64,000 nucleotides of DNA from Arabidopsis thaliana (taxonomy: Eukaryota; Streptophyta; Magnoliopsida; Brassicales; Brassicaceae): positions 1,251,001 through 1,315,000 of the forward strand of contig NC_003071.7 of assembly GCF_000001735.4 (NCBI RefSeq), in the 5' to 3' direction. Made by a program: the position numbers and the translations under genes. Shown piece by piece: positions 9,805 to 24,837 of the stretch. The first letter of the stretch is position 1; each line of letters starts with the position of its first letter. A model generated the notes under the pieces. It was not told the origin of the DNA. It did no database searches and saw only the letters and a program-made list of their open reading frames with translations.

Positions 9805-11408
<1,604 letters not shown>

Positions 11409-12839: not shown

Positions 12840-12848
12840 AAATAAAAA

Positions 12849-13250
12849 AGGTGAACGATCTGTGTCCGTCTAGAAAGTTTCATATAGCACTATAACTACA
12901 CAAGATTCGAACCTCTATCTCAGTTTTCACAAAATGGAAGTTAAAGTTCAATTTCTCCCTAAATCGAAAGTTCGAATCATAGATCTCTATAAATTCGTAT
13001 TTCACGGTTTATCTTTGGTTTACTGTATCAAACCCAATATCAAACCAAAATTAAATAAACTTAACCGAATTAAAATCGATTTAAGTTATCCCAACCCAAA
13101 ATAAATACCAAATGTAATTATTTAACATCAATAATAAAATCTAAATTCTAATGGATTTAGAAAGTTTTAAACAATTACTATAAAAAAAAGGCAAAAAAAA
13201 AAAAATGAATCTCCTTTCGTCTTCTTCTGTTCTTCCTCCTTCCCTTTTCA
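12849..13250 (+). repeat. Left terminal inverted repeat of the MULE
   Basis: Pairs with 20850-21212. Easily matched segments are gattcgaacctctatctcag, aaaatggaagttaaag, tttctccctaaatcgaaag and tttcacggtttatcttt. There is moderate divergence between the two copies, so the insertion is not very recent. Confidence 0.88.
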
Positions 13251-14117
13251 AATCCCAGATTTTTTCTGGAAAAATAAATAACAATATACAAGTTCATGGA
13301 TTCGTAAAATCTTCTCCATGTGAATTGATGTTAATCAAAACCCAAATTTAGAATTGATGTTAAATTCGAATTTTGCAATTTTGAATCAAATCCAAAATCA
13401 TTTTTTTCTCGAAATGACATTAATTCACATGAGAAACAACTTCTAGATTTCGAATTGATGTTAAGATGAAATCAAATTTCGCAAATAGTCTCTATCTCAA
13501 TTAACATCAATACACATCTACCATTGAAAGCTCGAGTAATTGAATCCATTAGTGCCGCCGGTTCAATCTCCCCAACACACCGCAACAAATCCCAGCCATT
13601 ATATGTCAAACACCATCATCACAAAACCTTTCCTCCAATTACAGATCAAATCAAACAAGTCTTAGCAACTCTACGATTTTGGTTTTAACTTGTGATGTTG
13701 TCAAAATCTGGGATTATTTGGAAAAATCGTCTGGCCAGTCCCTTTTTTACAAAGAGTAAGCCAAAAAATCCATGTAAAAAACAGAAACAATTTTTGATTT
13801 TTTAAATTCGAAATATATGGATATTACTAGTATATCCCCATCTGAATCTATTAATTACCAGAAAACCCATGGTTCGTTTCCGAACCAAACCACCCGAATC
13901 ACTTTTACTCATTATTTGAAAATCAAATAAAAAAAACCCTAATATTTTCAGGGATTTCCCAATTCGAATTTCATTCTTTTTCTCATTACAACCGTTTTTG
14001 ATTTTTCTTCTTCTTCTCCTTAGTAACCGCTGAAATTAACCGCAACATTCCATATTTCTTTAAATTCAATCGATTGTTCACCAGTATTTCTGTTCTATTT
14101 CCGATTCGAAATCAGTC

Positions 14118-16299
14118 ATGCCGCCTAAGACGCGTGGAGGAGGTCAAGGGAAAAGAAAGGAGAGAGAAGCGTCGGCGCCGGCAAAGACAGAGAAAGTTAA
14201 GGCGCCGGCGGAGAAAGTGAAGGAGAAGGTGCCCGCGAAGAAAGCGAAGGTTCAGGCGCCGGCGAAGAAAGCGAAGATTCAGGCGCCGACGAAGAAAGTG
14301 AAGGTTCAGGCGCCGGCGAAGAAAGATAAATAGAAAGTGCCGGCTGAGGAGCAGTCGCCGGCACAAACGACTGCGACGGCGATGCAACCAATGTGGCTCC
14401 AACGACAGCGGCTCCAACGACAACGGCTCCAACGACGGCTCCAACGACGGAGAGCCCGTTGCTTGATGATTCTACATTTTATGATGCTCTGAAGCATATT
14501 CCTGCTGAAGAAATTCAAGAATATGCAAACTGATGAGGTGGAAGATGAAAATGAAAAAGAAGAAGCAAGTGAAGAAGAAGAATCAGGGAGTAGTAGCCGA
14601 ACCTTGGGCTCCGATTCCGATTCAGAGGAGACGGAGACAAACAAAGAACTCGCGTGTGCTAATCCCGTGGAAGAGGCGGAGAGACAAGATGACAGCCTAG
14701 CCGTTATCGAGGAGGAGGACGAGAGGAGCTTCGCGAGCGACGAGGACGTCAATGTGGATAAGTCCATGGAGGATGAGGGAGACGAGGACGAGAGATACGA
14801 GGACGTGATAGTGGAAAAACCCGTGGAGGAGAGGACCATAGACGAGGACATCGCAAATGTGGTAAGTATTCCATTCGTAATACCGATCTAATTGGGTAAT
14901 AATGCAATTGTGAACTGTGGACAGTACTAGTAACATTGGGAAATGCTATGTTGATATTTATGTAATATAGGCGGATGTGGGTAATACCTTAGAGTAATAC
15001 TACAATTGTGATTTATCGATAGTTAGTACTAATAACTTTGAGAAATACTACATAGTAAAATAGGAGTATCTGTGTAATACTGGTAATTACGGGGAATACT
15101 TCTGAGAAATACAGAGTAATACTGTGGTAGTACTATTTACAATTGAGTGATATATGAATAGTAGGATTTGTGTAATACTGGTAATTTCGGGGAATACTTT
15201 TTGGAAATACAGAGTAATACTGTGGCAGTACTATTTACAATTGAGTGATATATGAATGAATGTTTGTTTCTTTCAGGATATGGAGGAAGCGATGGCAATG
15301 CAGCCACTTGGTATGTACTTCCCGGCGTCGGAGTATACCAAGAAGATGAAGTTAGCAACGAGGTGTTATATCTCGGAGGTGTTGAAGACCTTCGCTGACT
15401 TGGAACATCCTCTAACAGATGTTGAGAAGAATTATTTTATGGAGCATCCGAGTTTCAAGCACATCTACCACCTGCCTTCCGGATATACCCACAAGTTAAT
15501 GGAGATGTGGATGCTTTTTCTTCGAATGGCATCTATTGAGAAGAAGAAGGAGGTTTGGTTCGTTGTTAATGGAGTTCTCATCCGCTATGGTATTAGGGAA
15601 CATGCTTTGATCTCTGGTTTCAACTGCAAGGCCTATCCAGCTAATTATCAGAGTGCTGGTAATATGAACTTCGCCAACAGGTACTTCAAAACCGGGGTAA
15701 TTAGACGTGAAGACGTGAAAACCAAGCTAATGGAGATGGAACCGGCTAGATCAAAGGATAGGTTGCGGATGGCGGTCCTCTATTTTCTATCAAGCATCAT
15801 TGTCGTGCCTACTAAGACCGGAGAAAGGGCTAGTCCAATTGATGATTTCTGTGTTAGGGCTGGGCTGCAAGTGATCTTACGTTTTGTAAGACATTTCCAT
15901 GGGGGAGATATTCATTTGAGTACATGTTAAAATCGATCTCACACACATTGGATCATTTTAACGGTGTCGTCCCGAACACTCAGTCACCATGGCCTGTTCC
16001 CGGATTCTGTGTGCCGCTTGAGGTAAGTCACATGTTTTATCCTTATGGAAATGGAGGAAAAACAAGCAACGTTCAAAGCATTTATGGATGAGATGAAAGC
16101 CAAGGTAAATCTGGGTAATACCGGATATACTGTTCCTTAATTGGTAATATCGCGTTACCAAGGTTTAACTAAATTAACAATGCAGATGTCTCATAACCCA
16201 CCAGATGATGAGGAATCAACAACCAAGGACAATGCGACTGCTCCTGTTGTGCCCAAACGAGTGACCCGTTCAACCCGTGCAAAGTCTAGTAACGTGTGA
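14118..16299 (+). pseudogene. MULE accessory gene with DUF1985-like domain
   Basis: The N-terminus (14118-14333) is a lysine/alanine/proline repeat (KAKVQAPAKK-type units), broken by a stop at 14331. A strongly acidic segment (14523-14863, with EEEESGSSSRTLGSDSDSEE) follows, ending at donor gtaagt. The next exon begins at 15277 after ctttcag. It reads MEEAMAMQPLGMYFPASEY and continues through FKHIYHLPSGYTHK and WFVVNGVLIRYGIREHALIS, the pattern of the DUF1985 domain of Arabidopsis MULE proteins. Near 15895 a one-base shift throws the conserved PWGRYSFEYMLKSISHTLDH out of frame. Small 3' exons (about 16050-16112 and 16186-16299) end in KRVTRSTRAKSSNV. Such proteins accompany Ulp1-like proteases or VANDAL anti-silencing factors; which this was cannot be told here. 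Confidence 0.72.
15070..15260. repeat. Tandem duplication in the MULE intron
   Basis: Two nearly identical copies of about 89 bp, 15070-15158 and 15171-15259, lie inside the intron before the DUF1985 exon. Each carries two gtaatactg motifs. Confidence 0.9.
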
Positions 16300-16435
16300 A
16301 AACTATTCGTGTAACTTCTCCGGATTTGTATTTTGATTTCTTGTACTTTGACTTTGTTTTAGGATTTCGCAAGTACTCGTAAAACTATGTTTGGATTCAA
16401 TTAATGTATTAGGATGTTTTATGATATTGTTAACT

Positions 16436-16725
16436 GAAATACGGGAAATACCTCGTGCTACTACTACTAAGATATTGAATTTTACTGAAATACTGGAAAT
16501 ACCTCGTACTACAACGACTAAGAGATATACTGGAAATACAAAAGGCTACTACAACTAAGAGATATACTGGAAATACAACATGCTATTACTATTAAGAGAT
16601 ATACTGGAAATATCAAACTGAACAACCATAGTATTACCAATCAAAGAGAAGTCTTACAATCAAAGGGAAAGTCTTACAAAGCATACAGAAAGTCTTACAA
16701 AGCATAGGGAAAGTCTTACAAGCAA
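16436..16725. repeat. Two short tandem arrays between MULE genes
   Basis: Units of about 40 bp containing gagatatactggaaatac recur at about 16436-16615. Units of about 26 bp containing gaaagtcttacaaagcata recur at about 16647-16725. They lie in the gap between the convergent MULE genes. Confidence 0.8.
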
Positions 16726-16761
16726 ATTAACAATAAGATTAAGGAACAATAGGATAACACA

Positions 16762-17337
16762 TTACTTCTTTGGAGCCATAAGATTACGGAATACCACTTT
16801 GCTCACGTTCACAATCTCTGCACGGTGGGCTTTCAATCCTTTTTGCATTTCTTCTATGAGATATTCATGATTTAGAACTTTCTTCCGATTGTAATCAACA
16901 CTCTCCCTTAAGCTACTCACCTCTACTTCCATAGCCTTATCCCAAAGTTTACGGATGTGCATACAATCAGTTCTATCATCCAACAAAGTACCAAATATTT
17001 ATCAAATATAGATCTAGATCTACAAAAACTAGAAAAACTTGTGCAGTATTACTTGTTCTAGGCAGTATTACCAAAACGGGAAATACTCTAAAATACCAAA
17101 TATATCTAGATCTAGATCTACACAAACTTGAAAAACTTGTGCTCTACATCAACATACCTTAAACTTCTCGCATTGATAGTATCTCTTTTCATCCTTTCGA
17201 GTGTCGACAATGCTACCACCACATGGACAAAACTTAGGAATCCCTTCCATCATCGCAACCATTTCCATTTGCGCAATGGCTCTCTTCACCACTTTCATAT
17301 CATCGTAGTAGGGGTCTCTCTCACACAGTCTATCCAT
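16762..17337 (-). pseudogene. MULE small gene: CPCGG zinc-finger plus coiled coil
   Basis: Exon 1 (17337 to about 17157) encodes MEGIPKFCPCGGSIVD, then KRYYQCEKFK, a GRF-type zinc-binding pattern, followed by donor gtatgttg. Exon 2 (16982-16762) encodes MHIRKLWDKAMEVEVSSL and a charged helical tail ending NLMAPKK. Small proteins of this design are common in Arabidopsis MULEs. The intron's 3' end, at about 16985, reads ttg where an AG is expected, so splicing may be lost. The role is unknown. Confidence 0.6.
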
Positions 17338-17945
17338 GGTAGAAATATGAAAGAAAGATGAGAGATGTGAGAGAATTCGAGTCGAAGAGAGAGATGAAAG
17401 ATGTGGGAGAAGAGAGATGAGAGATGAAAGAAAAAGAGGAAAGAAGATGAAAGATGAAAGAAAGTTGTAAGAAGAGATCGAAAAAGAAAGAGGAAAAAGA
17501 AAAAAGTGAAATTTTTGGTTTTGGAGGGAATCTCAAAATTTGTTAGGCGCCAAAAATTTTGGGGGAAAACCAAAAAAAATAATTCCCCACGTGTGCGCCG
17601 TTTTTTGGAGATTTTTGACATGTGCGCAGCCTTTTTACAGCATAGTATTTCCTAAAGTTTTGGTAGTGCCAATTTCTCAAATAGTATTACTTTCCATGTT
17701 TTTCATGTTTAGCAGTATTTCCTATATTTACAATTTGTTTATTTAGTAGTACACTGGATTGAACTTTATAAATATAGAGGTTTAAATATTTTATGCAATT
17801 ATAAATTAAATATATGTAGCAATATGAATTTTTCATTTTAAGTTGGTGATAATATTAAAATTGAGCTTAAAAGTATGAGGGATATGTTGTATTGAGTCTA
17901 CTAAAGATAAGTTAAAACGATTTAATATTAAAATTTCTAACTTAA

Positions 17946-20157
17946 TTAAGTATAAATGATTAATAATACATTTTTATCTGTTAATAACTCACTGTATTCA
18001 TTTTCATTGAGTTTTGATGTAAACAAATTCGAACTCCATAACACCAACTTAGTATTACCAGTAGTACTAATATGACCACAAATTCGACAGAAACAGACAT
18101 GATATTCATCATCCATAATGTTAATGAAAGCGGCTAATGCATGAATACAAGGATATTTTTGGATATCGAAAATCTTGCAACTGCAAGTTTTCAAAAGCAA
18201 GCTCACCGTATAATCTACTCCTTTGTCGCATGTGACTACATATTCACGATCGAATGAGTTTAGCTCCACCACTTTCAGCTTCTCGGCAAAAACCAACAAA
18301 TCATGCAAATAATTCTCGACCAAAGTCACCATCTTATTTTCTAAGGATCCAGACGCGGCTTCCATCCGATGTTCATTAAACCAAACGAAGATTTTTGTGA
18401 TGATCGCATCAAGCATTGGTATTAACGAGTATTTCCTTGCGTTTTTAAACACATTGTTCAAAGATTCCACACAATTGCTTGTGTATAAGTTGTATCTTTC
18501 TCCGGGAAAACCACACCTTGCCCATTTTTTTTCACGGTTGTATCCTCCAAATACTTGGTCGCCTTATGATATCTCAACTTAAACCCGTCATACGCTCGGT
18601 TGAAGTCCGCCACGACGTAGATCCGACTTAACTCCTGAAACTTCCATGCGAGTACGTCTCGATTGGTGTGAGTAGCATGACTTTTCACATTTTAGGACAA
18701 ATGCCAAATACAATACCCGTGATGAGCCGCGGTATACACGTTCCGTATGGCCTTTATGAGGCTTGCATTTCTGTCCGTCATGAAAACCAATTCTAAGTAT
18801 CGGGTACAACCGTTTTTAGCTTCTCGAAAAACCACTCCCAACTAGCATCATTCTCACCGTCGAGTACGGCAAACGCTATGATGTAATGGTGACGGTTAGG
18901 ATCTTGAGCCGAGGCAAACACTAGCACTCCGCCATATCCGTTCTTCAAATGTGTTGCATCCACAATTAAAACTTTCCTCATCACTCTAAAACCTTCAATG
19001 CTAGCTCCCAAAGCTACGAATACGTACTGAAATTTATCATTCTCATCCAATTTCAGATAAGTAACTGTACCATCATTTACCTTCTTCAACATGTATAAAT
19101 AACAATTGATATCCTTGTAGCTTTCTTCCGGGCTACCTTTTAAATCATAAATCGCATGATATTTCCCCCTTAGCGCTGTCGAGTATGATACTTTCACACC
19201 TAATTTCGTCTGAACTAGCTCCATGATAATTTTTGGAACCGGAGTTTCCAACTGTCCCAGAAAATGATCATGAAGGAGAGCTGCGACTAATTGTGGGTTG
19301 CCTTTTCTTTTCCTGAGCCTACTACTACCTTTACTTAGCCGAGTGCAACTATGCATCTTATTGTACCTTCTAATCGAGAATATATCAGTATTACTGATAT
19401 TGGACGCTCGTAAACGCCAAGAACAACTCTCTTTGGCACACTTTAGGACATAACGCTCCTTATCCGACTTCTTAATCACATAAACAAAACTGTTAGCAAA
19501 TGCAGCTCTATCCACCACCTCGTGCAATGCCGCCTTGTTTGGAAATTCTTGACGTAAGGTCAACCCAATTCCGTCTTTCCATTCTTTTTTAAACATACCC
19601 GGTTCTACAGCAGGTGGCGACTCAACATACTGTTCCCCCCTATCAGAATTATCCATAGACTCATCATAGCGTGTTTCATCTTCTTGAGTCCCGTGATCCT
19701 CCACTATTGCCTCAAGTTGATGTTGAGTTCCTTGTTCCTCTTCTAATAAGACGATGAGTGCACCATCATCCACTCTCATTTCATCCTCCTCTGAATTCAA
19801 CTCCGTATAGTTCTTACCAACAGAACTGTTACCAACTCTAGACAATTGCTCGGGCAATTGCTCCGGCTCGGGCGGTTTAGAGATCTCCTCCACAACCAAA
19901 ACACTTCTCTGGTTATTTTTTGCGGATGTTACATAAACAAAGACATCCTCATCATCACAAACGTTCATTTCTTCCTCTACTCCGAACAACCGTGGATTGT
20001 ACCTCATATGCAATTTTACCTTATTTGCATTTAATCCAAGCTTCGTTATTATCCTATCTTCTAACATTGAGAGAGTAATCTTCTCCCCTAATGTCTTCAT
20101 CATCACATTATACATGCGACCTTGGAATTTAAAATATATGATCACGTTCTCTTTCAT
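17946..20157 (-). pseudogene. MuDR-type MULE transposase
   Basis: The main frame runs from the ATG at 20157 to 18793. The N-terminal region (MKENVIIYFKFQGRMYNVMM) is PB1-like. An acidic linker and the MuDR DNA-binding domain follow (GIGLTLRQEFPNKAALHEV, then CAKESCSWRLRA and MHSC). The catalytic core starts with VLIVDATHLKNGYGG, the first acidic residue. After a frameshift at about 18793 it continues as FMTDRN (second aspartate) and CIWHL, then VESLNNVFKNAR, and ends with the SWIM zinc finger CSCKIFDIQKYPCIHAL (about 18180). At least two frame breaks (about 18793 and 18470-18530, the latter at an A-rich run) inactivate it. A 5' intron probably ends at the ttggcag just upstream. This is the mobilising enzyme of the element. 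Confidence 0.88.
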
Positions 20158-20849
20158 TGTAACCTGCCAAAACAATACACATACTCAGTCAATATTACTA
20201 GTATTACCGATTCTAGTACATTTTCAGTAATACTAGTACTAATTCTGAAATATTACATGTGTGAGTAATACTATTACATATATGAAATAATACGTGTCTA
20301 AGTAATACTGGTGCTATTAAAACATACTATCTATATAAATTACGGTACTACTATAGCTAGTTCGACCAGTATTATTTTCGCGACAAGAACAAATATTCGA
20401 TTTGAGTTCAATTTAGTGTGAATCAGCATGTGAAATCAATTGCTTACCCATTAACAGACCAAATGAAGCCTAAATCTATACTTAAACTTCTAATGTAGGT
20501 GCTAAAACACAATAACCCAAATCTAATTGGATTGAATCTCAAAATCCTCAAAATATGTAATTCAAAGCTTTTGAAGCTCTCTCCATACCTGGACTTAGTA
20601 GATTGATGCAGCTTGCAGGAGGAGAAAAACGACAATGCGGCTCGCCGGAGGAAGAAGCCCGAAGAAGAACGAGCTCGAGCTTTTTCTTTTTCTTTTTCCG
20701 TTTTTTTTTTTCAAAATGTTTAGAAATACAGGGGTAAATTCGTCTTAACACAATTCCTTAACACAAAGGGGATATGAAGACTCTAAAGTGGTTTTGCAGA
20801 TTAGTTGTCCCACAAAAGGGACACAAGAGATGATCATTCGATTATAAGA

Positions 20850-21212
20850 GGGAGGAAGGAAGAAGACGAAGGAGATGTATATTTATTTTTAATTCTTTTC
20901 ATCGTTTTTAAATAATTATTTAAATTAGATTATATTATTAATATTAAATAATAACATTGTATTTATTTTGGGTTGTGATAATCAGGTTTTAATTCGGTTT
21001 AGTCTATTGGGTTTTGGTTTGACATGGGTTTGGCACAGTAAATCAAAGATAAACCGTGAAACTCAAATTTATGGGGACCTAGGATTCGAACTTTCGATTT
21101 AGGGAGAAATTGGACTTTAACTTCCATTTTGTGGAGACTGAGATAGAGGTTCGAATTCTGTGTAGTTATGGTGTTATATGAAACTTTGTAGGGAGACACA
21201 AGTCGTTTACCC
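20850..21212 (-). repeat. Right terminal inverted repeat of the MULE
   Basis: Complement of the left repeat at 12849-13250. It ends gtcgtttaccc at 21212 and is followed by the second 9-bp target copy, 21213-21221. Confidence 0.88.
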
Positions 21213-21239
21213 AAATAAAAACAATTAAAAATTACACAA

Positions 21240-22690: not shown

Positions 22691-23426
22691 ATAAATAGCT
22701 TTGATCTTCTCCATATTTCTTTATTTAAAGATTTGGCTTTTTTACCTTTGCTTTCACTTCTATTCATTGTCTTCCTCTGTTCCATTGGTAACTTCCTTGT
22801 TCTTTCATCTAAGTGTTCTTTTATCATAGTTCTTTTACTGACACTTTATACTTATCTAGTGCTCTCATTTCCTTACGCAGCTCCAAATTCAAACACAAGT
22901 GATTTTGTCTTAGACTGTCTCATGCGATAAGGTAACACTACTATATATTTTGGTGTATTTCATAGATTGCCATAAGATTATATATTTTAGGATTAAAAGC
23001 TTAACAATATTTGATAGAAGTACGTGGGAATTAGAATTTCAATATCCTTACGTAGATTCGTTTAAAGAATAACTAATTCTAGGCTTTTGCATGGTGTATT
23101 TTTATTTTTAGTGTGTTTGACTGTTTGTTATTTTGTAAATCAATTATAATAACCAACTTTGGATTCAGTGTTGGAGCTAGTTATCTTCGATGCATAATTT
23201 TGTTTTAAACTTTCTCTTAAATTTTTCAAAGTTTTTAATTTTCTTTTCAATTACCGAAGCACAAGTTGTAAAAAAAGTTTATATTTTTTTTTCTGAATAT
23301 AATTTAACTTTATATTAAAAAAAAAAATGATTATAATTAACTTTTCGCCATCATGATTTTTTTTCGCAGGGTTTATTTCTTTTGAACTCTTTGCTCTTAA
23401 ACCGGTGGAAAAAAAAATATAAAGAA
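22690..23426 (+). promoter_or_regulatory. Promoter and spliced leader of the second GDSL gene
   Basis: TATA-like ctataaatag (about 22689-22698), a first leader exon ending at 22786 (donor gtaact), a second leader exon 22881-22931 between acgcag and gtaac, and an intron to 23369 (ttcgcag). The second leader exon is nearly the same as 8392-8442 upstream of the other GDSL gene. Joined, the two leader exons give a short frame with a hydrophobic stretch (PLLSLLFIVFLCSI) that ends in a stop at 22929, but no ATG starts it. Confidence 0.5.
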
Positions 23427-24524
<1,098 letters not shown>

Positions 24525-24837
24525 AAGAAGCCTGCCTGTTATGAAGAAAAAATTAAACAACACTTCTTTTTTATACTCTGATTACTTCAAGTTCATGTTG
24601 GGACTAAGAGGACCTTCGACCAATCGATATAGTTCGAATCTATTGAACACGACAGGCCCGTGTTGTCCTTTAGATTATGATGGAAGTTTAACTTCAAGTT
24701 GCAAGCGCAGGTCAAAAACGTGTAAAGCACCAGATTCTACTCATATTTTCTTTGATCCGCGTCATCCGACTCAGTTGGCGAATTTCATGTACTCCATTGC
24801 GTGTTTCGACGAGAGAACTATTTGCCATGTCGTGTGA

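Follow-up and report, generated by a model that had tools for sequence, protein, structure and literature searches.

Two nested transposons

We analysed a 64-kb window of Arabidopsis thaliana DNA (contig C2:1251001-1315000), in which a decayed 7,119-bp copy of the transposon VANDAL21 lies within a small Mutator-like element (MULE) bounded by terminal inverted repeats (TIRs), and in which the motif YAGTATTAY has accumulated in the non-coding DNA of the inner copy. An earlier note on this DNA had described the region as a single VANDAL-type MULE of 8.4 kb. A genome search with this span (40 of 104 first-look candidates scored; the list of relatives may be incomplete) gave two kinds of match, in which 13721-20839 matched VANDAL21 copies and both ends matched one 1.24-kb element. 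The ends, 12850-13716 and 20840-21210, both aligned to C4:1487367-1488604 (1.24 kb) at 89-90% identity, and the two matched parts join at the insertion point with an overlap of 5 bp. A single 8.4-kb TIR element was rejected because both ends match this one element elsewhere. The VANDAL type of the MULE stood; the motif-bearing element is the inner one, of 7.1 kb. The features are as follows.

12840..12848, unstranded: left target-site duplication of the outer MULE, AAATAAAAA, 9 bp (exact 9-mer also at 21213)
12849..13720, unstranded: outer ~1.24-kb TIR MULE, left part with terminal inverted repeat; 89% identical to C4:1487745-1488604; 0 motifs
13712..13720, unstranded: left target-site duplication of VANDAL21, GATTATTTG, 7/9 identical to the right copy GATTATAAG
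13721..20839, plus strand: nested VANDAL21 (Hiun-type) copy, 7,119 bp, at C2:1264721-1271839, identified from its termini, 98.0% VANA-region identity and tree placement
14112..16300, plus strand: VANC21 pseudogene; DUF1985 recognised (PF09331, E 1.9e-19, 15256-15930); stops, frame disruptions; DUF287 part deleted
14862..15276, plus strand: VANC intron with splice-like ends GTAAGT and CAG, holding five minus-strand motifs
16629..16637, plus strand: motif in the VANC-VANB spacer (pattern search)
16765..17337, minus strand: VANB, two exons (tblastn with frames of the copy at C2:10.00 Mb); intron holds motifs 17044 and 17063
17682..17690, plus strand: motif upstream of VANB (pattern search)
18050..18058, plus strand: motif between VANB and VANA, next to the second deletion at 18101-18106 (pattern search)
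18105..20184, minus strand: VANA transposase pseudogene; PF10532, PF03108, PF10551 and PF04434 on two fragments; motif at 19386
20199..20375, unstranded: array of five motifs upstream of VANA, partly in ~37-38-bp repeats; aligned in 12 copies
20840..21212, unstranded: outer MULE, right part, 90% identical to C4:1487367-1487749; starts with the 9-bp right target-site duplication of VANDAL21; 0 motifs
21213..21221, unstranded: right 9-bp target-site duplication of the outer MULE, AAATAAAAA, exact match to the left copy

Since the outer ends match one element elsewhere and target-site duplications accompany both elements, a small TIR MULE was already in place when the VANDAL21 copy entered it. 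The AAATAAAAA duplication is A-rich and therefore weaker evidence than a complex 9-mer. An unoccupied relative of the outer MULE, L020 (C4:1487367-1488604), has GATTAGAAG at the insertion point; it is a separate copy rather than an empty allele. The termini of the inner copy resemble those of other VANDAL21 copies, and exact 9-bp target-site duplications are readable at the VANDAL21 loci L010 and L013.

The VANA, VANB and VANC gene set is present as remnants, VANC without its DUF287 part. At 16042-16044 the window copy is short of about 0.6 kb, which in the C2:10.00 Mb copy carries PF03384 (the DUF287 part of VANC); a further 0.43 kb or so is missing at 18101-18106, and there the C2:10.00 Mb copy carries the transposase C-terminus and three motifs. 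Because gaps of similar size are seen against most other long VANDAL21 copies, both are losses in the window copy. VANA was recovered by tblastn as three pieces in three frames, with one stop and the final ~100 residues lost, and its MULE transposase and SWIM domains can still be identified. VANB looks open overall: exon 2 matches the frame of the C2:10.00 Mb copy at 93% without stops (tblastn), and exon 1 is open from the first Met in the printed frame. The exon-1 frame of VANB in the C2:10.00 Mb copy gave no Pfam match. The window copy is a fossil, as the earlier note had supposed, with VANC and VANA broken by stops, frame disruptions and two deletions. A 27-bp coding tandem repeat of about 6 units lies in VANC exon 1 (14147-14335).

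YAGTATTAY in the VANDAL21 copy

A pattern search of both strands found 19 exact YAGTATTAY matches in the window, compared with a mean of 3.9 and a largest value of 9 in 100 window shuffles. The starts of 16 of the 19 fall within 14994-20367, and the remaining three (35934, 51615 and 55245) lie outside the element. The VANDAL21 part (13721-20839, 7,119 bp) thus holds 2.25 sites per kb, set against three sites in the 55.6 kb of window outside the composite; 2,000 dinucleotide shuffles of the same 7,119 bp averaged 0.31 sites and never exceeded 4. The genome-wide count of 5,445 in 119.66 Mb (7-contig assembly) predicts 0.32 for the element, and across the genome the motif is not over-represented (5,445 vs 6,841 for the pattern read backwards). 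Same-strand pairs 1-30 bp apart number 80 in the whole genome, vs 30 with the backwards pattern. When all 140 rearrangements of AGTATTA between two Ys were counted in the element, the real motif alone reached 16; the runner-up reached 5, and the mean was 0.56 with the real motif counted in. The 16 matches that had been counted by eye were therefore recovered, far above shuffles, flanks and genome rate, where 0.3-0.4 would be expected. Fifteen of the 16 positions were exact; that given as 20209 is wrong by 10 bases and should read 20199.

Fifteen of the 16 element sites are in non-coding DNA, which makes up 2,896 of the 7,119 bp (boundaries judged from reading frames and splice-like signals, accurate to a few bases). 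The earlier estimate had been about 14 in introns or spacers, and the concentration it described holds. The sole coding site, 19386, is within the transposase remnant. By type, 15 sites are C-type and one is T-type. Four of the five motifs in the VANC intron lie within a 98-bp tandem duplication (15059-15254). Accumulation of YAGTATTAY in non-coding regions, a trait of VANDAL21, is present in this copy, and the motif occurs neither in the outer MULE nor in its three related stretches, L020-L022.

In the VANC-VANB spacer, a 37-bp tandem repeat carries the motif variant GGAAATAC (16436-16617); the C2:10.00 Mb copy lacks an equivalent of about 16453-16591 within it.

Relatives, variant sites and spacing

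In the transposase (VANA) region, the window copy shares 98.0% of 2,069 aligned bases with the C2:10.00 Mb copy and is 97.3-98.0% identical to five Hiun-type copies. In a tree of this region comprising the window and 15 loci (16 were tried, L028 being dropped for an aligned piece of 485 bp; L017 is not included), the window copy adjoins the Hiun-type copies with local supports of 0.75-0.90 around it, and five T-type-bearing loci, 76.6-77.2% identical to it, are placed far away. Comparison with related copies, which had been proposed as a check, also showed that array sequences of the window copy occur exactly in other VANDAL21 copies. The traits of the VANDAL21_1 subgroup, namely C-type motifs without T-type accumulation and grouping with Hiun, are found in the window copy. 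By identity and tree, window 13721-20839 is a VANDAL21 copy of the Hiun-type subgroup and not a separate family with the same or a sister motif, as the earlier note had suggested. Its sole T-type YAGTATTAT site, at 20367-20375 (CAGTATTAT), is common to 11 of 12 aligned copies and hence predates the split of the Hiun-type copies.

With VANDAL21/Hiun the window copy shares gene order, protein domains, termini, motif type and motif regions, but it lacks about 1 kb in two places, its VANC and VANA are broken and it is nested in another MULE. The VANDAL21_2 subgroup (Hosaka et al. 2017, PMC5735166) has the same YAGTATTAY motif family and tandem arrays, whereas L023-L028, putative members assigned to it by motif type and divergence, carry 3-8 YAGTATTAT (T-type) sites each against one in the window copy; such per-locus counts take in flanking DNA. 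VANDAL6 and VANDAL8, the targets of VANC6, represent an anti-silencing system of the same kind with different motifs, AGTTGTCC and AGTTGTAC (PMC5735166). These are not enriched here (1 and 0 in the element, 2 sites in the rest of the window), and the copy is not of the VANDAL6 type.

Hiun is AT2TE42810, with VANC21 as At2g23480 and VANB21 as At2g23490 (Sasaki et al. 2023, PMC10398659). These gene numbers fit the position of the C2:10.00 Mb copy, which would be Hiun judging from position, an open 793-aa transposase frame and gene order. In PMC10398659, the legend to Fig 3B mentions the methylation patterns of three elements, Hiun, AT2TE05755 and AT2TE06955, and that passage gives no coordinates for AT2TE05755. 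From the order of identifiers, the window copy is probably AT2TE05755, and AT2TE06955 is probably the copy at C2:1.505-1.514 Mb.

Variants of the motif were also met in the element. AGTATTTC occurs 7 times there and 0 times in the rest of the window, and GGAAATAC (reverse complement of GTATTTCC) occurs 9 times with 0.06 expected, these GTATTTC-type variants having been selected from many k-mers with the rest of the window as sole background. Spacing was analysed in 18 sequences (the window element, L009-L019 and L023-L028; L001-L008 were left out). Among neighbouring AGTATT[ATC][CT] core sites, 19 bp was the commonest spacing, in 6 of 50 distinct-context groups (spacings 9-60), with 3 each for the next commonest; distinct-context groups replaced a loose-threshold clustering of spacers that had merged unrelated short ones. 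In the rest of the window, no neighbouring core sites lie within 60 bp. The signal is modest and is a lead only, since repeat units are non-independent. The main text of PMC5735166 uses none of the terms spacing, interval, dimer, 19 bp and 38 bp. It is possible, though doubtful, that VANC21 recognises a broader site family including AGTATTTC and GTATTTCC and binds as an ordered multimer on sites ~19 (or 38) bp apart, spacing as well as density setting target specificity.

Three motifs at exact 19-bp steps lie at C5:13498184-13498230, a place not among the matches listed for the 8.4-kb span. The nested transposons of the window are flanked by two similar genes in the same orientation, 9829-11408 and 23349-24830, ~13.4 kb apart, with blocks 76-91% identical, which we take to be GDSL-type lipases.

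VANC21 and a probable target in trans

YAGTATTAY, the published binding site of VANC21, an anti-silencing protein encoded by the transposon itself, is the most over-represented motif in regions bound by VANC21 in chromatin immunoprecipitation sequencing (PMC5735166), and it is the motif to which the earlier note had pointed. According to the same paper, single-base changes in it drastically lower VANC21 binding in vitro in electrophoretic mobility shift assays, VANDAL21 copies carry arrays of it in non-coding DNA, and methylation is lost along whole VANDAL21 copies upon VANC21 expression; demethylation of VANDAL21 copies is also described in PMC10398659. The motif and the system are thus already known, and it is the anatomy of this copy that is corrected here. 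We consider it about 95% probable that the array represents docking sites for VANC21 in a VANDAL21 copy of the Hiun subgroup that is ordinary but decayed, nested in a small TIR MULE and a target in trans only. By analogy with the published copies, VANC21 from another, working copy would bind the clustered sites of the window copy in trans, and the bound protein would remove DNA methylation from it. The copy would be a passive target of VANC21 made elsewhere and can only be a target, because its VANC and transposase genes are broken.

Three observations weigh against this interpretation. The VANDAL21 target-site duplication in the window is imperfect, with 7 of 9 bases shared between GATTATTTG and GATTATAAG. 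The assignments to AT2TE05755 and Hiun draw on identifier or gene order. In addition, conservation of the motif columns does not exceed that of random 9-mers in any of the 4 regions, a result that also counts against a functional role of the variants and spacing: 420, 2589, 3314 and 1790 of 5000 random placements reached the mean conservation of the motifs (12, 8, 6 and 8 of 12 sequences per region, copies not spanning it being dropped). Purifying selection on the motifs is unsupported in all 4 regions tested.

This lack of extra conservation would fit a motif density produced incidentally as tandem repeats expanded in AT-rich DNA, with no selection for binding, and the 98-bp duplication and the 37-38-bp repeats do supply part of the count. 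However, the sites are spread over five separate non-coding segments with different flanks, no rearranged motif comes near the real count, and the motif is required for efficient VANC21 binding in vitro (PMC5735166), so that repeat expansion is a very unlikely source of the density. It is still less probable that the sites belong to a separate VANDAL family with this motif or a sister of it. In favour of one, the composite exceeds VANDAL21 copies in length and ends in inverted repeats, but those repeats are part of the outer element, which is of another kind, and the inner part combines 97.3-98.0% identity to five Hiun-type copies with exact shared array sequences. Nor does the copy seem able to act for itself: VANB seems open and much of VANA and VANC can still be read, yet the stops, the several frame disruptions and the two deletions, which took the DUF287 part of VANC as well as the transposase C-terminus, make a working VANC or transposase extremely improbable.

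What the window offers is confirmation of a system already published, together with one clear example of a decayed, target-only VANDAL21 copy that lies inside another transposon. PMC5735166 leaves to future work which protein regions define VANC target specificity. The variant sites and their spacing, if the lead is true, would be relevant to target choice by VANC proteins, and the decayed arrays of this copy would then be natural test substrates for a broader site and an ordered spacing.

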